Under the pieces are notes generated by a model. It was not told the origin of the DNA. It did not search any database and worked only from the letters and a program-made list of their open reading frames with translations. A stretch of DNA of 64,000 bases from Eublepharis macularius (Eukaryota > Chordata > Lepidosauria > Squamata > Eublepharidae): assembly GCF_028583425.1 (NCBI RefSeq), contig NC_072793.1:171035681-171099680 (forward strand). The letters are read 5' to 3'. Made by a program: the position numbers and the translations under genes. Below, piece after piece: positions 802 through 63,579 of this stretch; within the stretch, counting starts at the first letter, position 1, and each line of letters begins with the position of its first letter.

Positions 802-990
802 TGTCCAGAGGAGTTAGTCTGTAGTTGCAAAATAGTAAAAAGTCCAGTAGCACCTTTAAGACTAATCAACTTTATTAAGGCATCAGCTTTTGAGAACCAC
901 AGCTCAACAAAGTTGGTTAGTCTTAAAGGTGCTACTGGACTTTTTACTATTTTGCACCTACAGACTAACACAGCTAACTCCTCTGGATCT
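802..990. repeat. Palindromic short element, two diverged arms
   Basis: Two arms in inverted orientation (802-893 and about 905-990) share the segment GTCTTAAAGGTGCTACTGG and its complement, and both outer ends read CCAGAGGAGTTAG or its complement. This is the same family as 38181-38390, but the central hammerhead-like part has decayed here. No target duplication was found. Confidence 0.7.
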
Positions 991-3239: not shown

Positions 3240-3439
3240 CCCAGCCTAATCCATCTTGGGCTGCACTTGTCAGGGCTAGGAAGCTAAGCAGGGTCAGACT
3301 TGGTTAGTAATTCAATGGGAGACCTCCAAAGAAGACCAGAGTTGCAGAGGCAGGCAATGGCAAACCACCTTTGTTAATATCTTGCCTTGAAAAATCCCAT
3401 GACTGAATGCCACAAGTCTGTTGCAACATGATGGCATTT
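3240..3439 (+). mobile_element. 5S-rRNA-derived SINE
   Basis: Contains the 5S rRNA internal-promoter-like segment GGAAGCTAAGCAGGGTCAGA and GGTTAGTAATTCAATGGGAGA, followed by the tail GGCAATGGCAAACCACC. It lacks the flanking halves of a real 5S gene. Its 3' end was the target of the palindromic insertion at 3440. Confidence 0.85.
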
Positions 3440-3745
3440 GGTTGTTGTGGGTTTTCCGGGCTGTATTGCCGTGGTCTTGGCATTGTAGTTCCTGACGTTT
3501 CGCCAGCAGCTGTGGCTGGCATCTTCAGAGGTGTAGCACCAAAAGACAGAGATCTCTCAGTGTCACAGTGTGGAAAAGATGTTGGCAGGTCACTGAGAGA
3601 TCTCTGTCTTTTGGTGCTACACCTCTGAAGATGCCAGCCACAGCTGCTGGCGAAACGTCAGGAACTACAATGCCAAGACCACGGCAATACAGCCCGGAAA
3701 ACCCACAACAACCATCGTTCTCCGGCCGTGAAAGCCTTCGACAAT
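3440..3745. mobile_element. Palindromic Penelope-like terminal-repeat insertion, 14-bp TSD
   Basis: Two near-perfect inverted arms each contain GACGTTTCGCCAGCAGCTG or its complement. The whole 306-bp unit is bounded by an exact duplication ACATGATGGCATTT at 3426-3439 and 3746-3759. One arm extends to the terminal TTGTCGAAGGCTTTCAC (complement at the right end) and the other stops near GGTTGTTG. The arms match the terminal repeats of the longer copy at 47234-48334, which holds GIY-YIG coding sequence, so this is assigned to Penelope-like elements. Confidence 0.8.
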
Positions 3746-3761
3746 ACATGATGGCATTTAA

Positions 3762-4890: not shown

Positions 4891-5141
4891 ACACAAGGCT
4901 TTAATAGAAATCCAAACAGAATGACATAGAAATGGGGAGGGACACCTGAGAAAAGGTTCTAAAGTATACTGAAGAAGAAATTAAAACCATATTGTCACAT
5001 AGCTCATTACACCTGAGTGTCACTGAGAAAGCTGAGGCGGCTTATACTCAGAAAGTGTGATGTTTAAAAAGATGAGGAAAGAAAGGTGTGTACATTAACA
5101 AAGAGAGCACAGCACAAAAGAAACAGTGGAAAACAAGTAGA

Positions 5142-5234
5142 AAAGAGCAATAGTCCAGTAGCACCTATAAGACTAACAAAATTTGTGGTAGGGTATGAGT
5201 TTTCATGAGCCACAGCTCACTTCTTCAGTGGAAA
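5142..5234 (-). mobile_element. Single arm of the hammerhead-like short element
   Basis: On the minus strand it reads CTGAAGA, A, then a stem GTGAGC/GCTCAT, then GAAA, and later GGTGCTACTGGACTATTGC. This is the conserved order of the family seen at 38181-38390. Confidence 0.65.
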
Positions 5235-8949: not shown

Positions 8950-9112
8950 GCCTTCCACGCACGCTGAATAATGCTCTTTCAATCCACTTTTGATGCACTT
9001 TGCAACTGGATTTTCCTGTGTGAAACAGCAAAATCAACTCGCACAGGATCTCTAAAGTGCATTGGAAGTGGATTGAAAGCGCATTATTTAGCATGCTTCA
9101 AAGTGTTTAGGT
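8950..9112. mobile_element. Foldback MITE (TAATGC family), diverged
   Basis: Imperfect inverted arms: GAATAATGCTCTTTCAATCC at the left and the complement of GCTAAATAATGCGCTTTCAA at the right. Same family as 9989-10133. Confidence 0.65.
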
Positions 9113-10190: not shown

Positions 10191-11146
10191 TTATATGGTT
10201 GCTCCTGTATGTGTTCTTTGATGTGAATTTAGGGTGGTGCTCCAAATGAAGTTCTTTCCACAATCCAAGCATTTGAATGTTTTCTCCGCTGCATGAGCAC
10301 GCTGATGCTTAATGAGAGTTGATCGATCGCAGAAACTCTTGGGACAATCTGAGCATTTAAATGGTTTCTCTCCAGTGTGAACTCTTTGGTGTCTTTTAAG
10401 GTTTGAGTTTTTACTGAAGTTCTTTCCACACTCGGAGCAGGTATATGGTTTCTCGCCCGTGTGCATTCTCTGATGGGAAGTAAGATCTATCCTCTGGATA
10501 AAGCTCTTTCCACACTCCAAGCAAGTATACGGTTTCTCCCCCGTGTGGATTCTTTGATGGCGAATAAGCTTTGCCCGCTGGAAGAATCTCTTTCCGCACT
10601 CGGAGCATTTAAACGGTTTGTCTCCAGTGTGGATTCTCTGATGACCAATCAGTTCCGTTTTGTCTCTACATCCTTTCCCACACTCCAAGCAAATATATGG
10701 TTTCTCCCCTGTGTGGACTGCTTGGTGTCTGCTCAGTTTTTCCCTTTGACTGAAGCTCTTTCCACACTCCAGGCAAGCATACGGTTTCTCCCCTGTGTGA
10801 ATTACCTGATGCCTGATCAGGTTTGCCTTCTGGCAGAAACTCTTCCCGCACTCAGAGCATTTAAAAGGTTTTTCCCCTGTGTGGATTATCCAGTGGAGAT
10901 AAAGGCTTGATTTACGAAGGAAGACTTTCCCACACACAGGGCACTGACTCCGTTCTTTACCTGCAACCGTTTTGCCTTGCAATGGGATTTCACGGAAGTC
11001 CCCACCTGGAGAAATGGAGGATTCATTCCCCCTTTCCTGCTTTATTTTCATTTTTCTCCTCTGTCGTTCCCCCGCTTCAGATCTGCCTCTTCTCAACATC
11101 TCCCTAAGTGGCTCCCCCTCGTTCTCACTCTTCCAACCATCTCCCA
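10191..11146 (-). CDS. Gene A exon 5: nine-finger exon
   Basis: The acceptor is TTTTGTTGCAG followed by TGGGAGATGG; the leading TG completes a codon begun by the KRAB exon. After a charged spacer come nine C2H2 units with HTGEKP-type linkers. Apparent helix positions -1, 2, 3, 6 are RSSL, QANR, QEKR, DTEG, QAKR, QIDS, KSNR, DSTK and WTTS. The eighth linker is unusual (HAAEKTFKC). All Cys and His ligands are present in all nine. The exon stops at THTGATI, just where a tenth finger would begin; relics of further fingers lie downstream. Confidence 0.9.
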
Positions 11147-12126
11147 CTGCAACAAAAGAAAAAACTAGTAAGAATCCAGAGGAGAAATGAAATCTGAAGT
11201 CATGAAATAGAAATAAATCTATTAGTTCCTGCTGCAGGCGACACACAGACTAGACATTTCCATAGGTACAAGGATTTCCACTCACAGAGTGCAAGCTTCA
11301 CACCTTCGCTCCTTCCTGAAGGCCCAAAAGCCTCCCTGAAATTCTGAGAAGGTTCCCCCAGAAAAAGATGGGGGGGGGCATTTCAGGCTGCCCCAGGAGG
11401 AAAGAAGAAAGGAAATTAGCCACCAGCGAGCAGGAATCCTTGTGTCTGTGGAAATGTTGGTTCAGATCCAACCCAATTCATTGATTTGTTTTTCCATTTA
11501 TACCCAGACACTCTTTGAAAGAGCCTCAAAAATGGAAAAAGAAATCTTGCCACGTATCATGGCAGGTTCCTGGAGAGGCAGCATAAATATTTACAAAACA
11601 AATAAACTTGCTAAACAACAATATACTTTTTATTCATGCTATTCAGACAGACGGCGCGGTGCAATCTATAAAGCACCGGACTTAGACTGTAATGGATTCA
11701 AGTTCAGCTTAGCTTTGCATCTAACATCTCTTCTTAACAGGAAGTAGAGCTGCAGAGACCACGGAAAGCCACGGCTAACCAAAGAAGACTACATTGGGCT
11801 CTGTAGACCCTGAGCAACTTCTTGTGTTAAGTAAGTTCTGCTCATCCATAGACATCCCCGTTTGGGCCTAGTGAAGCTTAAGACACCACTCTGTAACTTC
11901 TAAACAAAACTTCCAAAGCAGTTCACTATTCGCCAGCAATCATCTAAACATCTTAACTGAAAATGTTAAAATACAAATCCAGATCCTAAGTAAACAAAAG
12001 CGCAAAAGAAAACCGCACTCCAGTAGTGCCTTAAAGACTAATAAAATTTAAGAACTGATTTTGTTCATCTTTGAGATGCCACTGGACTCCTGATTCATTT
12101 TCTGGCTACAGATCAGTAATAATAGT

Positions 12127-31692: not shown

Positions 31693-32487
31693 ATGTCAAA
31701 AAAAGAGTGGCAATCGGCAATAGAAAACCTGGATAAAAACCTGGACAAAAAACTTTTAGATATGATTAAAGAACTTAAGGACACGAAATTGGAGCTGATA
31801 AAAGAGGTTAAAGAGGTTACACAGACAGTAAAATCGGAGCTGTCAGAAGTGAAAAAAGGTATGGAAACAATATGAAGTGAATTACAAGGAACGCAGCAGA
31901 GAGTTAAAACAGTAGAAGACGCGATGGAGAATTTAGCAGACACGCAACAAACAGAGATGAGATTGGTGAAGGGGAGAATGTCAGTTGCAGAAACTAAACA
32001 TATGGAGAAGCAGCTACGTTTTCGTGGCTTGCCAGAAGTGGAAGGAAAGTCAGCGCAAGAACAGATGACTGAGGTGTTGGCTGAGTACCTGGGGAAGGAG
32101 GAGGAGGAAGTTGTGGCTATCCTAGATGTGGCATACCGTGTGAATTCGAGAATAGCAACCCAGAGGAAACTACCAAGAGATGTGATTGTGCAGTTTACAA
32201 CACGAAATATGAAAGAGAGGATTGTGACAAAACAGTTTCAAGATCCATTGGAGATTGATGGCAAGACGATTATTATAATGAAGGAACTGCCCAGATCAGT
32301 GTTACTGGACCGGAAAAAATATAAAGTGCTAATTCAGATTTTGAAGGACATGAAAATCAGGTACAGATGGGAGTTACTGGAAGGAGTGTCCTTTGAGTTT
32401 GGAGGGGCCAAAAAACGCATCAGATCTGAGCGAGAGATGGAGCGATTTATTAAGGACAATGAAAAAGACTTACCAACAAGATCATGA
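31693..32487 (+). CDS. L1 ORF1 (RNA-binding protein), one in-frame stop
   Basis: A lysine-rich N-terminal coiled-coil segment (WQSAIENLDKNLDKKLLDM) is followed by the RRM and C-terminal domain (KQLRFRGLPEVEGKS, RKLPRDVIVQFTTRNMKER, RYRWELLEGVSFEF). The frame is continuous over 265 codons except for TGA at 31873-31875, after residue 60. An ATG at 31924 could restart the distal part. The ORF1 protein normally coats L1 RNA as a trimer; the stop removes most of the coiled coil unless read through. The gene ends ATGA, sharing bases with the ORF2 start. Confidence 0.88.
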
Positions 32488-35400
32488 GTATGGAGTGTAA
32501 AGTATTATCTTGGAATGTAAATGGACTAAACTCACCGAATAAGAGGAAAAATACTTTTCACTGGCTACTAAAACAAAAATGTGACATTGTTTGTTTGCAA
32601 GAGACCCATATCAGAAAGCAGGATGTTAAATATTTAAAATCTGGAAAATTGGGCAAAGAATATGTAGCGGCCTCCAACAAGAAAAAAAGAGGAGTGGTGT
32701 TGTACATAAAAGAAGAGCTACAGCCAAAATTTGTTATGAGAGATGTGGAAGCTAGATTTGTAGCAGTGGAATGTATTTGGAATTTAAAGAGAGTGTTGGT
32801 AGTCGGACTTTATGCACCTAACGGTGCAAAAGAAAGCTTCTTTGAGGATTTAAGGAAGCATTTAGACGATCTTGCATACGACCAGATAATTCTTGCTGGA
32901 GACTTCAATGGAGTGACAGACTTGGAACTAGACAAAAAGACTACAACGGCACAAAAGAAAAGAGGACTATTACCAAAGCTTTTTTTTGAGTTGATTCAAC
33001 AAGAGACTCTTGAAGATGTATGGAGGAGAGAATATCCTAAAAGCAGACAGTTTACTTTTTATTCTGCAAGGCATTCTACATTATCAAGAATTGATATGAT
33101 CTGGGCCTCAAAAGACTTAGCATTATGGACTAAGGAGGTAGAAATAATGCCTATGGTAGGCTCAGATCACAACCCAATTATGTGGAAATTTGGAAAAAAG
33201 AGAAAAAGGAAAGCATGGAGAATAAATGAGGACTTGTTACAGGAAAGAGAGAATATGGAAATACTGAGAAGAGAGACAAAGTTTTTTATACAATACAACG
33301 TGAATAAAGAAGTACCAACCAATAAAGTTTGGGATGCTTACAAGGCGGTTGTAAGGGGCATACTAATGGACTTAAATGGTAGAGCAAGAAAGAAGAAAGA
33401 GGAGAAAAGACAAGAGATTGAGGAGAAAATAAAAGCCAAAGAAATACAGCTAAAAAAGAGACCAGGGAAAAAGAAGGTACACCAGGAAATTAAAATACTT
33501 CAAGAACAGCTAACAGCAATGAGCAATAAAGAATTGGAGTGGAATCTCAAAAGACTGAATCAAAAAGCGTTTGAGGGTGCTAATAAACCTGGGAAGTACC
33601 TGGCATGGCAATTGAAGAAGAAAAGGGAAAAGAAGATAATAAATAAAATTTGCGAAGATAACAAAACGTATTTGGAGCAGGCTACCATTAGTAGAGCCTT
33701 TTATAAATTTTACGCTAAGCTGTATAATAAAAAAGAAGTAAACAAAGAATCAATAGCGTCATATTTGGAGAAAACCAAACTTCCAGAAATCTCGGAAGCT
33801 TGGAGAAATAAGTTGAATAGTGAAGTAACTGACGAGGAAATAAGTAAGGCAATACAATCTGCAAATCTAGGAAAGGCGCCAGGGCCAGATGGACTTACGG
33901 CTAAATTCTATAAGACAATGGCTAATGAACTGGCACCATTCCTAAAAGAGGTGATGAATGGGGTTTTAAGGGATCAAAGGATTCCAGAAACTTGGAGTGA
34001 AGCGAATATATCATTGATCCCAAAAGAGGGCCAAGACCTGACTAATGTGAAAAATTATAGACCTATATCGCTACTCAACAATGACTATAAAATTTTTGCG
34101 AAGATATTGGCGGAGAGATTGAAGGGGTGGCTCTCGGAAGTCATAGAGGAGGAACAAGCAGGCTTTTTGCCAGACAGACAAATAAGAGACAACTTAAGGA
34201 CAGTGATCAATGCTATTGAATATTATGACAAGCGTTGTGACAAAGAGGTTGGTTTCTTCTTTGTTGACGCTGAAAAAGCGTTTGACAATTTAAACTGGGA
34301 CTTTATGTTTGCCACTATGGAAAAGCTACAATTGGGAGAAAGATTCATCAGAGCAATTAAGGAAATTTATAGAGACCAGACTGCAGCAATTGTGGTGAAT
34401 GATGAATTGACCAAGAAATTGACGATAAGTAAAGGAACAAGACAAGGTTGCCCGTTATCTCCATTGTTGTTCATTTTAGTATTGGAGATTCTGATGATAC
34501 AAATACGTCAAGATGATGAAATTCGTGGATTAAAAATAAAGGACTATTCATACAAGGTCAGAGCATTTGCGGATGACATAATGTTAATTGTAGAGGACCC
34601 ATTGGAGAACATGCCAAGAGTGATAGATAAGATCAAGGAGTTTGGAGACTTGGCAGGTTTCTTCATTAACAAAAAGAAGTCAAAGATATTATGCAAAAAT
34701 ATGACTAAGCAGAAACAACAATTGTTAATGGAAACAACGGATTGTGAAGTAACAAGTAAAGTGAAATATTTGGGAGTCGAATTAACTGCAAAGAACATAG
34801 ATCTATTCAAAAACAATTATGAAAAACTATGGACTCAGATAGAGAGAGACTTGATTAAATGGAATAGATTGAATTTGTCATGGTTGGGCAGGATTGCAGC
34901 AGTTAAGATGAATGTGTTACCAAGAGTAATGTTTTTGCTACAGACAATACCAATCATCAGAGACTCCAAACAATTTGAAAAATGGCAGAGGAAAATATCA
35001 GATTTTGTTTGGGCAGGCAAGAAGCCTCGAGTGAAAGTGAAAGTTTTACAAGATGCAAAGGAAAGAGGCGGAATGCAACTGCCCAATCTGAGACTTTATC
35101 ATGATGCAATCTGCCTAGTTTGGTTGAAAGAATGGATGACATTAAAGAACAAGAAACTATTAGCCCTAGAGGGATATAAAAAAATATTTGGATGGCACGC
35201 ATATTTATGGCATGACAAAGTAAAGGTCAACTCGATGTTCCTGCATCACTTTGTTCGGAGAAGTCTATACATAATCTGGAAGAAGTACAGAATTTATCTA
35301 CAAGAAGGAACCCCTTTGTGGGTGGTTCCATATGAGGTGATAGACCCGAGAGCTGTTGATAATGAACAACAATGTTTAACGTATAAAGAAATAACTAAAA

Positions 35401-36245
35401 CTGAAGCATCCAAACTTAGAATAAAGACACAAGAGGAACTATCACCTAACTACGATTGGTTCCAGTATAGACAGATCAGAGACTTATATAATTCGGACTC
35501 TGTAAAGGGAGGTATACGAATAGAGAATTCGGAACTAGAGCAGACCCTTCTTAAAGAAGATAAGAAAAGAATATCCAAGGTATACCAAGTACTGTTGAAG
35601 TGGTATACCGAGGATGAGATAGTTAAAACACAAATGGTGAAATGGGCTATAAACTTTAATAAAGAAATAACAATGGAGGCATGGGAATACTTGTGGAAAA
35701 CTACAATGAAGACAACGACATGTATTAATATCAAAGAGAACATTTATAAAATGATCTATCGTTGGTACATGACACCAAAGAAGATTGCGCTAGGGAATTT
35801 GAATACTTCTAATAAATGCTGGAAATGTAAGAAGCATGAGGGCTCCCTCTATCATATGTGGTGGTCGTGTGAGGTAGCCAGGCAGTACTGGGGGGAAATA
35901 ATAAGAGAAATGAGTGAAATTTTACAATTTCAAATTAATAAGAACCCAGAACTCCTGCTACTGAACTTGGGAATGGAGGGAATTCCAGCCCAACACAGGA
36001 CGTTGATATTTTATATGACAGCAGCAGCTAGACTTTTGTATGCGCAAAAATGGAAAGTACAAGAAGTGCCAACTATTGAAGATTGGACTTACAAATTGCT
36101 GTATATGGCTGAAATGGACAAGATGACAAGAAAACTGAGAGATCTGGACTCAGGGCAGTTCAACACAGACTGGGAGAAGCTGAAACAATACCTGGAGAAG
36201 AAATGGGAGGTGGGAGGAAAACTGTGGCAGTTTGAGAACTACTGA
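32484..36245 (+). CDS. L1 ORF2: endonuclease and reverse transcriptase, 1253 aa, open
   Basis: N-terminal APE-like endonuclease with N11, E40 (QETH), Y110, D140 and N142 (GDFN), D204 and SDH at 227-229, all expected catalytic residues. Reverse transcriptase follows: KAPGPDGLTAKFYK, NYRPISLLNNDYKIFAKILA, VDAEKAFDNLNW, TRQGCPLSPLLF and the active-site FADD (about 695-698). A C-terminal Cys/His cluster (CWKCKKH, then HMWWSC) lies near 1112-1130. Length and order match full-length vertebrate L1 ORF2 and no break is seen. Nicks target DNA and copies L1 RNA in the nucleus. Confidence 0.95.
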   Translation: MSMECKVLSWNVNGLNSPNKRKNTFHWLLKQKCDIVCLQETHIRKQDVKYLKSGKLGKEYVAASNKKKRGVVLYIKEELQPKFVMRDVEARFVAVECIWNLKRVLVVGLYAPNGAKESFFEDLRKHLDDLAYDQIILAGDFNGVTDLELDKKTTTAQKKRGLLPKLFFELIQQETLEDVWRREYPKSRQFTFYSARHSTLSRIDMIWASKDLALWTKEVEIMPMVGSDHNPIMWKFGKKRKRKAWRINEDLLQERENMEILRRETKFFIQYNVNKEVPTNKVWDAYKAVVRGILMDLNGRARKKKEEKRQEIEEKIKAKEIQLKKRPGKKKVHQEIKILQEQLTAMSNKELEWNLKRLNQKAFEGANKPGKYLAWQLKKKREKKIINKICEDNKTYLEQATISRAFYKFYAKLYNKKEVNKESIASYLEKTKLPEISEAWRNKLNSEVTDEEISKAIQSANLGKAPGPDGLTAKFYKTMANELAPFLKEVMNGVLRDQRIPETWSEANISLIPKEGQDLTNVKNYRPISLLNNDYKIFAKILAERLKGWLSEVIEEEQAGFLPDRQIRDNLRTVINAIEYYDKRCDKEVGFFFVDAEKAFDNLNWDFMFATMEKLQLGERFIRAIKEIYRDQTAAIVVNDELTKKLTISKGTRQGCPLSPLLFILVLEILMIQIRQDDEIRGLKIKDYSYKVRAFADDIMLIVEDPLENMPRVIDKIKEFGDLAGFFINKKKSKILCKNMTKQKQQLLMETTDCEVTSKVKYLGVELTAKNIDLFKNNYEKLWTQIERDLIKWNRLNLSWLGRIAAVKMNVLPRVMFLLQTIPIIRDSKQFEKWQRKISDFVWAGKKPRVKVKVLQDAKERGGMQLPNLRLYHDAICLVWLKEWMTLKNKKLLALEGYKKIFGWHAYLWHDKVKVNSMFLHHFVRRSLYIIWKKYRIYLQEGTPLWVVPYEVIDPRAVDNEQQCLTYKEITKTEASKLRIKTQEELSPNYDWFQYRQIRDLYNSDSVKGGIRIENSELEQTLLKEDKKRISKVYQVLLKWYTEDEIVKTQMVKWAINFNKEITMEAWEYLWKTTMKTTTCINIKENIYKMIYRWYMTPKKIALGNLNTSNKCWKCKKHEGSLYHMWWSCEVARQYWGEIIREMSEILQFQINKNPELLLLNLGMEGIPAQHRTLIFYMTAAARLLYAQKWKVQEVPTIEDWTYKLLYMAEMDKMTRKLRDLDSGQFNTDWEKLKQYLEKKWEVGGKLWQFENY

Positions 36246-37615: not shown

Positions 37616-38277
37616 GCCCTGAAAGGTAGGCCCATATGAGTCATCCCCCTATTGCAGTGAAAGGCATGCCAAAGGGGAATCGGTGTCTGAAGAGGAACTT
37701 CAACCCTCTACCTCCCAGATCATGTCAGCTTTTCTGCTGCAGCAACTGCTTTGAGCATCTCAACTGTCTGGTTCAAGGTTTTGGTTTTGACATTTAAAGC
37801 CCTTTATGGACTGGGACCAGCATACTAACGGGACCATCTCTCCCCATATGTCCCTTGGAGGGCCTTGCACTTGGCGGACAAGCAGCTGCTGCTGGTCCCC
37901 GGCCCAAGGGACGTTTGCCTGGCCTTGACCAGGACCAGAGCTTTCTCAGCCCTGGCACCAGCCTGGTGGAATGCTCTTCTGGTTGAGATCCGGTCCCTGC
38001 AAGATCTGTTGCATTTCCACAGGGCCTGTGCAATGGAGCTGTTCTGCTGGGCCTATGGCTGAGGCAATTAGTCCCAACTGCCCGTTTCTCACCACCCTGC
38101 CCTGGTTATGAATTTATTTTGCCAGCTGCTCTTTACGGCTTTACCCAGCCCTTTATCTGGATTTGATAGTAGACGCCTCTATGATCCAGAGGAGTTAGCC
38201 ATGTTAGTGTGTAGTAGCAAAATAGAAAAGAGTCCAGTAGCACCTTTAAGACTAACCAACTTTACTGTAGCATAAGC

Positions 38278-38305
38278 TTTCGAGAACCACTGCTCTCTTC
38301 GTCAG
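38278..38305 (-). ncRNA. Hammerhead-ribozyme-like core, left arm
   Basis: On the minus strand: CTGACGA, one A, stem GAGAGC/GTTCTC (one G-U pair) with loop AGTG, then GAAA, then AGCTTATGCTA, which can close a short stem III before a UA cleavage dinucleotide. The order matches type I hammerheads. The extra base before stem II is known in a viroid hammerhead. Activity untested. Confidence 0.5.
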
Positions 38306-38307
38306 AT

Positions 38308-38346
38308 CTGATGAAGAGAACTATGGTTCTCGAAAGCTTATGCTAC
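38308..38346 (+). ncRNA. Hammerhead-ribozyme-like core, right arm
   Basis: CTGATGA (38308-38314), A, stem GAGAAC/GTTCTC with loop TATG, GAAA (38332-38335), then AGC-TTAT-GCT as stem III followed by A. Every core position of the hammerhead consensus that I can check is met except the extra A before stem II. Stem I pairing was not resolved. Confidence 0.5.
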
Positions 38347-38540
38347 AGTAAAGCTGGTTAGTCTTAAAGGTGCTACTGGACTCTTTTCTATAGACGCCTC
38401 TTTGTGATCATAATTTATTGATATGGTTGTGGTTTTATTATTCCAATATAAACTATAGTTATCTGTTTTAATATCCTGAGCCTGCTTGCAGGGAGGTCAG
38501 TCTATAAATGTAATAAATGAAGTGAAATGATTGGTCACAG

Positions 38541-39060: not shown

Positions 39061-39160
39061 CTAGTCTCTGCTTAAAATCCTCCAACGGAGGAAAGCCACC
39101 ACTTCCCGAGGAAGCCTGTTCCACTGAGGAACTGCTCTGACTGTCAGGAGGTTCTTCCTA

Positions 39161-39250
39161 GGAACTACAATGCCAAGACCACGGCAATACAGCCCGGAAA
39201 ACCCCCAACAACCATCGTTCTCCGGCCGTGAAAGCCTTCGACAATACATC
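39161..39250 (+). mobile_element. Single-arm Penelope terminal-repeat fragment, 10-bp TSD
   Basis: 90 bp from GGAACTACAATGCCAAGACC to CCTTCGACAATACATC, flanked by GTTCTTCCTA at 39151-39160 and 39251-39260. Truncated copy of the arms seen at 3440 and 39385. Confidence 0.75.
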
Positions 39251-39384
39251 GTTCTTCCTAATGTTTAGCTGAAAACTCTTGCTTTTATTTTAACCTCTTG
39301 TTTTAACCCACTGGTTCTGGTCCAGCCCTCTGGGGCAACAGAAAACAACTCCGCTCCTTCCTGTATGTGACAGCCCTTCAAATA

Positions 39385-39679
39385 TTGTCGAAGGCTTTCA
39401 CGGCCGGAGAACGATGGTTGTTGGGGGTTTTCCGGGCTGTATTGCCGTGGTCTTGGCATTGTAGTTCCTGACGTTTCGCCAGCAGCTGTGGCTGGCATCT
39501 TCAGAGGTGTAGCACCAAAAAGACACTGACAGCACCAAAGTGTAGCACCAAAGTGACACTGAGAGATCTCTGTCTTTTTGGTGCTACACCTCTGAAGATG
39601 CCAGCCACAGCTGCTGGCGAAACGTCAGGAACTACAATGCCAAGACCACGGCAATACAGCCCGGAAAACCCCCAACAAC
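39385..39679. mobile_element. Palindromic Penelope-like insertion, 14-bp TSD
   Basis: Inverted arms identical in layout to 3440-3745: the left arm complete from TTGTCGAAGGCTTTCACGG, the right arm ending at CCCAACAACC. CAGCCCTTCAAATA is repeated exactly at 39371-39384 and 39680-39693. It lies in CR1. Confidence 0.82.
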
Positions 39680-40699
39680 CAGCCCTTCAAATAGTTGAAG
39701 AGGGCTATCATATCACCTCTCAATCGTCTCCTCTCCAGGCTAAACATACCCAGCTCCTTCAACCTGTCCTCACAGGACTTGGTCTCCAGACCCCAGACCA
39801 TCTTTTTAGCCTCCTTCGGACACATGCTGGCTTGTCAACAGCCTTCTTGAACGGTGGTGCTCCAAATGGAACACAATACTCAAAATGAGGTCTACGCAGA
39901 GCAAAGGGACACCGTTACTCCACGTGATCGGGACAGCAGACGTGTGTTGATGCAACCCCAAACTGCATCTCCTTCTTAGCTGCCAGTCCTCACTGCTGAC
40001 TCATGTCTACTAAGGCCCCTCGATCCTTTTCATATACTACTGCCAAGACAAGCCTCATCCATTCTAGAACGATGCATTTAATTTTTTTCTGCTTAAATGC
40101 AGAACTTGACATTTATCTCCGTTGAAATTCATTTTGTTTGTTTTAGCCCAGCCTGCCAAGATCATCCTGAATCTTCTGCTGTATTAGCTGCCCCTCCCAA
40201 TCTAGTATCGTCTGTAAATTTTAATGAGCATCCCCTCTATTCCTTCATCCAAGTCATTTAAAAAGATGTTAAACAACACGGGGCCCAGGACAGATCCCCG
40301 AGGCCCTCCGCTTCTTACTCATCTCCAAGAGGATGAGGGCCCATACAAGCACTCTTGGGGCACGATCTGTCAACCAATGACAAATCCACCAAACAGTAGC
40401 CGCATCCGAACTACATTTTACCAACTTGTCAACAAGCATATCATGTGGAATCTCATTAAAAGCCTTACTGGAGTCCCAAGAAACTCTGTTCACAGCATTC
40501 CCCTGATCCACCAAAGGAGTAGAACTCTTATTAAAAAAAGAGATAGGGATAGTCTAACATGACTTGTTCTTGAGGGACCCACGCAGGCTTTTAGTAATCA
40601 AAGCCTTCTTTTCTAAATGCTCAAGGACTGACTGTTGGATTTGTTCTAAAACCTTTCCAGGTATGGATGCCAAGCTGACAGGTCGGTAGTGTTGTATCT

Positions 40700-43813: not shown

Positions 43814-55370
<11,557 letters not shown>

Positions 55371-57069: not shown

Positions 57070-57412
57070 AGGCAGCGTGTGAAGTGATTAAAGACTGGGA
57101 TCCATAAGGGTTAGCCGTGTTGGTCTGTAGTAGCAAAATAGCAAAGAGTCCAGTAGCACCTTTAAGACTAACCAACTTTATTGTAGCATAAGCTTTTGAG
57201 ATCCATAGCTTTCTTCATCAGATGCATGGAGAACTGGGATGAGAGAGACCCAGGTTCGAGTCTCCACTCTGCCACAGAAGTTTGTTGGGTGACTTTGAGC
57301 TAGACACACACTCTCAGCCTAACCTACCGCACAGGGTTGTTGTGAGGATAAAATGGAGGAGAGAATGATGTAAGATATTTTGAGGGAAATAAAATATGAT
57401 AAATAAAATAAA
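57070..57412 (+). mobile_element. Sauria-like SINE split by a younger element
   Basis: The head is at 57070-57101 and the body from 57233 (GAGAGACCCAGGTTCGAGTC, GGGTTGTTGTGAGGATAAAA), ending in AAATAAAATAAAA. The element at 57102-57232 separates the two. Confidence 0.75.
57102..57232 (-). mobile_element. Single-arm hammerhead-like element inside a SINE, 8-bp TSD
   Basis: ACTGGGAT at 57094-57101 and 57233-57240. The minus strand reads CATCTGATGAAGAAAGC, AGCTTATGCTACAATAAAG, GGTGCTACTGGACTC and CAACACGGCTAACCC. Stem II is partly lost. Confidence 0.7.
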
Positions 57413-60496: not shown

Positions 60497-60705
60497 TGAG
60501 AATGGCTCAGTGGAAGAGCCTCTGCTTTGTATGCAGAAGGTCCCAGGTTCAATCCTTGGCATCTCCAGCTAAAAAGATCAGGTAGTAGAGGATATGAAAG
60601 ACTGCTTCCTGAGCCCCTGGAGAGCTACTGAGTAGACTATACTGATCTTGATGGGCCAAACCGTCTGATTCAGTCTAAGATAACTTCATGTGTATGTGTG
60701 TTTGT
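60497..60705 (+). mobile_element. tRNA-Ala-like SINE
   Basis: ATGGCTCAGTGGAAGAGCC, GCTTTGTATGCAGAAGG, CAGGTTCAATCCTTGGCATC, then a body ending TCTGATTCAGTC. Confidence 0.8.

Positions 60706-62406: not shown

Positions 62407-63579
<1,173 letters not shown>

Follow-up and report, generated by a model that had tools for sequence, protein, structure and literature searches.

A palindrome in the Eublepharis macularius genome is apparently a head-to-head pair of Penelope-type element ends from a single insertion

The window, meaning the whole stretch of 64,000 nucleotides analysed from Eublepharis macularius, contains a short palindrome at 38183-38391. The palindrome, its two hammerhead-like cores and an exact 11-bp target-site duplication, all described in an earlier note on this DNA, were found when the sequence was read directly. 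The two arms are identical at 81 of 86 positions. Positions in the 129-nt family unit are designated q, and the parts of the insertion are as follows.

38170..38180, no strand: left copy of the target-site duplication, TAGACGCCTCT (exact 11-bp match)
38183..38307, minus strand: long arm, covering q5-q129 of the Penelope-like element (PLE) unit as far as the distal (long) site, ..CTCTGGATC (aligned with the 129-nt unit of the family)
38183..38221, minus strand: long-tail extension, unit q91-q129, missing from the short arm
38268..38305, minus strand: hammerhead-like core of the long arm (sequence)
38304..38309, no strand: centre AGATCT, the putative joint of two cDNAs (sequence; centre classes across loci)
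38306..38391, plus strand: short arm, covering q5-q90 of the unit as far as the proximal (short) site, ..CTTTTCTAT (aligned with the 129-nt unit of the family)
38308..38345, plus strand: hammerhead-like core of the short arm (sequence; fold)
38391..38401, no strand: right copy of the target-site duplication, TAGACGCCTCT (exact 11-bp match); its first base may instead be counted as the last base of the short arm

The core of the long arm is made up, in order, of CTGACGA, an extra A, GAGAGC/GTTCTC, GAA, AGC-TTAT-GCT and A. The short arm has CTGATGA (38308-38314), an extra A (38315) and GAGAAC/TATG/GTTCTC (38316-38331), followed by GAA, AGC-TTAT-GCT (38335-38344) and A (38345). The description of two opposed arms holds, but the arms are not equal, since the left one has an additional 39 bp on its outer side, the long tail. 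As RNA the palindrome folds into a single hairpin of -148.3 kcal/mol, compared with -56.7 +/- 4.8 for 200 shuffles (z -19), an energy far beyond chance. The palindrome consists of two Penelope-type element ends that were apparently copied onto both cut DNA strands in the course of one insertion and joined head to head.

Several other features were recorded in the window. A LINE-type frame of 1253 amino acids with endonuclease and reverse transcriptase domains lies at 32484-36245, preceded by a 187-aa frame without a Pfam match at 31924-32487. On the minus strand, three long frames encoding C2H2 zinc fingers (10191-11246, 43814-46024 and 62407-63453) suggest a zinc-finger gene cluster. A tRNA-like stretch at 60503-60559 (Rfam tRNA, 37.4 bits) is possibly the head of a SINE. 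Another short palindromic repeat, with sub-threshold MIR3440 matches at both places, is found at 8950-9103 and in one of the collected loci (L015:2328-2484); the window copy has inverted arms of 43 bp with 86% identity, and no clear target duplication was found for it.

The genome containing the window (2.24 Gb in 72 contigs) gave 2619 candidates at first look with a query that contained the palindrome centre and 1278 with another query confined to its outer part. The leader and part of the frame gave 1943 first-look candidates. Longer copies (L051, L053, L080 and L085) extend upstream of ATGCATCTGA into a common leader, in L085 by 28 bp only. In L053 a frame upstream of the unit, covered in its C-terminal part alone, contains a GIY-YIG endonuclease domain (Pfam PF01541) that scores just over the cut-off (22.8 against 22.6 bits, E 1.2e-4). 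Because the longer copies run into this leader and, in L053, into the GIY-YIG frame, the arms are identified on sequence grounds as the core-and-tail part of a Penelope-like element. Two further PLE features were found, a tail with an optional extension of 30-40 bp between two classes of insertion ends and an inverted pLTR arrangement with a target-site duplication. Inverted pLTRs, with a tail on one of them, were already known according to the available parts of two publications (PMC3846280, PMC8969392). The same family is represented in the window by two more copies.

813..989, no strand: older two-armed copy with the long tail on both arms (sequence reading), for which no clear target duplication was found
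57099..57227, minus strand: single long arm, beginning at ATGCATCTGA

An older related family (CTGAAGAAGTGAGC..GCTCAC GAAAGCTCATACCCTACC) is found at 5136-5228 in the window and in L062:1698-1814, L051:135-229 and L015:2986-3077. The core and stem II are kept in it, and a stem III hairpin is not evident. At L017:246-474 three hammerhead-like units stand in direct tandem with a period of about 52 bp, and a single tail comes after them; the arrangement looks like the outcome of two jumps of the reverse transcriptase from the RNA 5' end back to an internal site.

The hammerhead-like core belongs to a type that Penelope-like elements carry, as the earlier note had suggested. It contains CUGANGA ... 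GAAA and the cleavage site UH, with one extra base before stem II. Minimal hammerhead motifs in Penelope-like elements were reportedly described by Cervera and de la Pena in 2014. Five pairs of the proposed 6-bp stem II are borne out among 86 arm sequences (paired in 91-98%), and the sixth is not (58%). The changes in stem II respect pairing, as they should in a conserved helix, with the double changes A-T to T-A and A-T to G-C relative to the older related family, which is represented by 4 sequences only. In the available text of a review, PLE pLTRs carry minimal hammerhead cores from which helix III is usually missing (PMC6155905); the palindrome family has the same minimal core, but it can form a short stem III and has no stem I. 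No flush base pairs of stem I were found in four contexts of the palindrome family, against three pairs in the Poseidon family of the same genome and in PAc of Anolis. As a description of the core, a relic or variant of the minimal PLE hammerhead fits best.

The check with Rfam hammerhead models that had been proposed gave no match in the palindrome family, and the Poseidon core used as a control was missed too. This negative cannot decide, because the Poseidon core was also missed although its Anolis relative cleaves in the presence of PAc protein (PMC11167929, available text). The self-cleavage suspected for the 38183-38391 copy found no support. It would be unlikely, because there are no stem I pairs in the four contexts and the palindrome RNA is predicted to prefer one long hairpin. 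Rfam matches at lax thresholds (miRNA, plastid 3'-UTR and one snoRNA model) were all below gathering scores and were rejected as effects of the palindrome. A search for the core gave no matches in viral contigs and eight in prokaryote contigs, which were judged to be chance; seven of these match the arms for a length of only 21-29 bp, and the remaining one for 13 bp.

The Poseidon family has a two-armed design like that of the palindrome, with centres that differ from AGATCT. Three two-armed Poseidon insertions lie in the window.

3439..3749: two-armed insertion with target-site duplication ACATGATGGCATTT; short arm 3439-3528 (minus strand), long arm 3625-3749 (plus strand)
39383..39681: two-armed insertion with target-site duplication CAGCCCTTCAAATA; long arm 39383-39504 (minus strand), short arm 39592-39681 (plus strand)
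47234..48339: two-armed insertion with target-site duplication TGTGGTTTA; long arm on the minus strand, short arm on the plus strand; inverted repeat of 361 bp, 98.3%

Two further ones are located in L015 and at C1:60046453-60046768. In this count, drawn only from loci already collected, all five insertions pair one long with one short end, and the target duplications are 9-14 bp (that of L015 by reading). The single Poseidon pieces, as far as visible, are 39160-39249, L016/L094, L057/L095 and L072. The long ends correspond to PAc positions 116-119, on or within 1-2 bases of the published start at 111-118, and the short ends lie 30-40 nt earlier, at about PAc 75-84 to 90.

The comparison with PAc is based on the available text of Frangieh et al. 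2024 (PMC11167929). There, reverse transcription starts inside the tail at 111-118, two adjacent internal starts have 30-40 bp of tail between them, and the PAc protein acts in vitro on both strands, which it cuts and extends, with no difference in start site between them. In vitro insertion is independent of RNA cleavage, RNA-seq data showed no ends where the RNA would be cut, and the later steps of insertion were left unvalidated. The palindrome family resembles Poseidon_Ac/PAc in its core, which has one extra base before a 6-bp stem II (read from the printed sequence), and in its putative internal start in the tail, two putative starts 30-40 bp apart and presumed use of both strands. It differs in the sequence of the tail and in lacking the 3-bp stem I of PAc. 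No pairing of a long with a short end in each insertion is reported in the text available.

The regularity of the ends was surveyed in the best-scoring 40 of the 2619 candidates from the centre query and the best-scoring 40 of the 1278 from the outer query. These loci, 30 + 11 in the centre set and 30 + 9 in the tail set, were chosen by similarity and not at random, and the first query contained the palindrome centre. L028, L050, L052 and L059 were repeats of other loci and were dropped, leaving 76 distinct loci. A short end was defined in the script as unit position 80-100 and a long end as 118 or beyond. By script, 64 of the 76 similarity-chosen loci are head-to-head and two-armed and 12 are single arms, one of which, L053, proved two-armed on a wider view. 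Among the 20 distinct loci of the outer query tied at 56/60 matches, 19 are two-armed. Unselected copies with at least 86% identity comprise two two-armed and one single copy in the window and one single copy in an extra 50-kb block.

The script classed 56 of the 64 two-armed loci as long-short. Three of its exceptions are long-short by reading: L015, where a Poseidon copy sits within the short arm; L060, judged by its outer ends as a further arm lies inside; and L069, where the script was misled by a chance alignment into the target duplication. In the other five (L013, L016, L024, L025 and L029) an end lies at neither site; L013 is so classed since its short arm possibly reaches q106. Adding L053, L096, L097, L098 and window 813-989 gave 69 two-armed loci; L096-L098 had been picked for their head-to-head appearance, and they and L053 are each long-short. 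In total, 63 of the 69 loci are long-short, five have an end off both sites, one is long-long (window 813-989) and none is short-short. The short end lies about 38 nt before the long (distal) site. In a set of 63 mapped loci, short ends fall at q89-94 in 46 and long ends at q127-129 in 54, with a reference string that stops at 129. At the other extremity, 109 of 126 arm starts were mapped to unit positions 1-5, a class that includes arms extending further up, as the reference starts at 1.

The joints are more variable than the outer ends. The AGATCT centre recurs in many of the loci found with the centre-containing query. It was found in none of the 24 two-armed tail-query loci, six of which have a centre of the AGATGCATCT type and the remainder inserts, microhomology or unequal arm starts. 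In L062 (q12-97 and q106-129, 13-bp duplication) and L063 (q17-92 and q107-129, 11-bp duplication) there is no overlap between the two arms. In L053, L054, L065, L068, L074 and L082 the short arm extends further 5' than the long arm.

The target duplications are 8-16 bp long with a mode of 12 (from the 45 loci in which they reach 8 bp or more). Their edges are A/T-rich, the preceding base is C in 21 of 45 loci and the following base is G in 21 of 45. The apparent target is two-fold symmetric, C/WW..WW/G with slashes at the edges of the duplication, as would follow from cutting of both strands by a single enzyme. Terminal microhomology is 1.84 at short ends against 0.57 permuted and 1.2 at long ends against 0.41 permuted, an excess that stems partly from how the duplications were delimited.

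Arms of the same locus often share variants, though not in the tail set. In the centre set (39 loci) the arms within a locus are 95.1% alike, compared with 93.0% for long arms and 93.0% for short arms between loci, and 41 non-consensus cells are common to both arms against 11.5 +/- 3.0 permuted (0 of 5000 reaching). A rerun with 63 loci gave 52 common cells against 20.1 +/- 3.5 (0 of 5000). No excess was found in the tail set of 24 loci (8 common cells against 6.7 permuted, 1557 of 5000 reaching), in which short arms between loci are 96.3% alike and arms within a locus 95.3%; the tail query had selected one arm per locus for near identity, which makes this set a poor test of arm likeness. Of 21 doubleton alleles, only two are present in the two arms of a single locus, compared with an expectation of 0.2; a count of at least 2 arose in 51 of 3000 permutations. 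Source variants common to both arms over the longer copies number five in L096, one in L053 and none in L097 and L098, with a between-locus baseline of mean 0.19 and maximum 3 in 101 pairs. The arms of L097 are 93.6% alike, against 95.8% for arms of different loci. The non-overlapping arms, the short arms that extend further 5' and the sharing of variants together mean that the arms were started separately, on RNA of the same source often but not always. As to single variants in the arms of L009-L088, G25A is in both arms at 20 of the 29 loci carrying it; T53C, unlike G25A, is in both arms at only 5 of 28 loci (33 arms). G22A, in 13 arms (10 long and 3 short), is in both arms at 0 of 13.

The palindrome has been regarded as having moved as a unit, which for a MITE- or SINE-like element would mean that a hairpin RNA is copied across both arms, beginning at the long tail, and integrated in one piece. 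The recurring AGATCT centre and the target duplications around whole palindromes agree with this, as does the greater likeness of short arms between loci in the tail set, subject to the query's choice of one arm. The centre set has the opposite relation, the tail-query centres are irregular, the 5' extents of the arms differ, and the design recurs in Poseidon copies around other centres. Independent insertions thus differ in centre and in arm extent, some with arms that do not overlap, and the palindrome as a moving unit is rejected because the joints vary between loci, a stronger argument than that from arm likeness; such an origin is very improbable. Even less credence is given to a functional self-cleaving hammerhead that shapes the element, with cleaved or circular RNA as template and cleavage setting the ends of the arms. 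The core nucleotides and stem II are kept, and in both L057 and window 813-989 the right-hand piece starts close to where cleavage is predicted. These two are the only pieces seen to do so, and the clustering of arm starts at unit positions 1-5, the missing stem I and the cleavage-independent insertion of PAc all speak against it.

Self-priming, proposed for Adineta vaga (PMC3846280, available part), would have a fold-back strand, or an antisense RNA primed on itself, copied into the second arm. It fits the perfectly or nearly palindromic centres and the variants that the arms often share. In L062 and L063, however, the arms have no common unit sequence, and in the six loci named above the short arm extends further 5' while the long arm has extra tail; neither arm can be a copy of the other in such loci, so that self-priming is excluded for at least some events. 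Zero-loop centres cannot arise through intramolecular fold-back. The arms of L097 are less alike than those of different loci, and a stop of the second arm near one site is left unexplained. As a general account self-priming is improbable. In LINE-1 twin priming both ends of the target act as primers, and the resulting inverted segments lie within a single target duplication. A process of this type, with the second target end priming internally on one RNA upstream of the first cDNA, matches the geometry of L062 and L063 and the microhomology at the junctions, and it is unlikely rather than improbable. The two arms of most loci are copies of one and the same stretch as far as the RNA 5' end, which calls for one RNA copied twice or for two RNAs, and the second start is clustered at q89-94 and not at random internal positions. 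What sets the insertions examined here apart from LINE-1 twin priming is that one stretch of template is usually copied into both arms, whose ends lie close to two fixed sites.

The preferred reading, with a probability of roughly 0.78, is that the palindrome is a short PLE insertion made by dual target priming. The PLE protein would cut both target strands in a staggered manner, leaving 3' ends 8-16 bases past each other, and each 3' end would prime reverse transcription within the tail of a PLE RNA, one strand from the distal and the other from the proximal site. Both cDNAs would extend to the RNA 5' end, at about ATGCATCTGA, and their self-complementary 3' ends (ATGCAT, or AT) would anneal or be joined to give the head-to-head palindrome. 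The RNA 5' end is inferred to lie at ATGCAT; in L051 a TATATAT is found 33 nt upstream. The core would be inherited from the PLE leader and idle in the palindrome copy, and in the parent element it may serve in protein binding or as a protein-assisted ribozyme. Dual target priming is favoured by the long-short pairing in 63 of 69 loci here and in all five Poseidon insertions and by the arms of L062 and L063, which are unable to copy each other. The two-fold symmetry of the target and the action of PAc protein on both strands, from two adjacent starts, also speak for it. Against it stand the one long-long insertion, the five loci off both sites and the frequency of single arms, and a strict division between strands is not what the lack of a strand difference in start site for PAc in vitro would predict. 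More tentatively, at somewhat below even odds, the complex may be two-headed and asymmetric, with symmetric cuts and the DNA ends obligatorily assigned to different start sites in the tail, usually on RNA of the same source.

The origin of head-to-head PLE palindromes was left open in the available part of the study of Adineta vaga (Arkhipova et al. 2013; PMC3846280). The Penelope families with inverted pLTRs described there have few copies, mostly long elements; the palindromes were ascribed to self-priming on an antisense template, and further experiments were called for. Compared with those PLEs, the dozens of short insertions found here make self-priming testable. Neither the one-long-one-short regularity nor dual target priming as its cause was found in the available text of PMC11167929, PMC3846280, PMC6155905, PMC7229834, PMC8969392 and PMC12910113 or elsewhere in the literature searched, which mostly excluded subscription journals. 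A caution also follows from the locus, namely that palindromic repeats with hammerhead-like cores and sub-threshold matches to miRNA families need not be mobile units or hairpin genes.

The regularity of the ends suggests how Penelope-like elements insert. The short two-armed insertions are a natural record of single insertion events, of which the genome offers well over a thousand candidate copies. Those examined link the two start sites known in vitro to the two strands of the target, and the model can be tested with the existing purified protein. If the two-headed complex is true, the head-to-head inverted insertion would be the normal product of a PLE and not an accident, and the optional tail, long known, would simply mark which strand started where.
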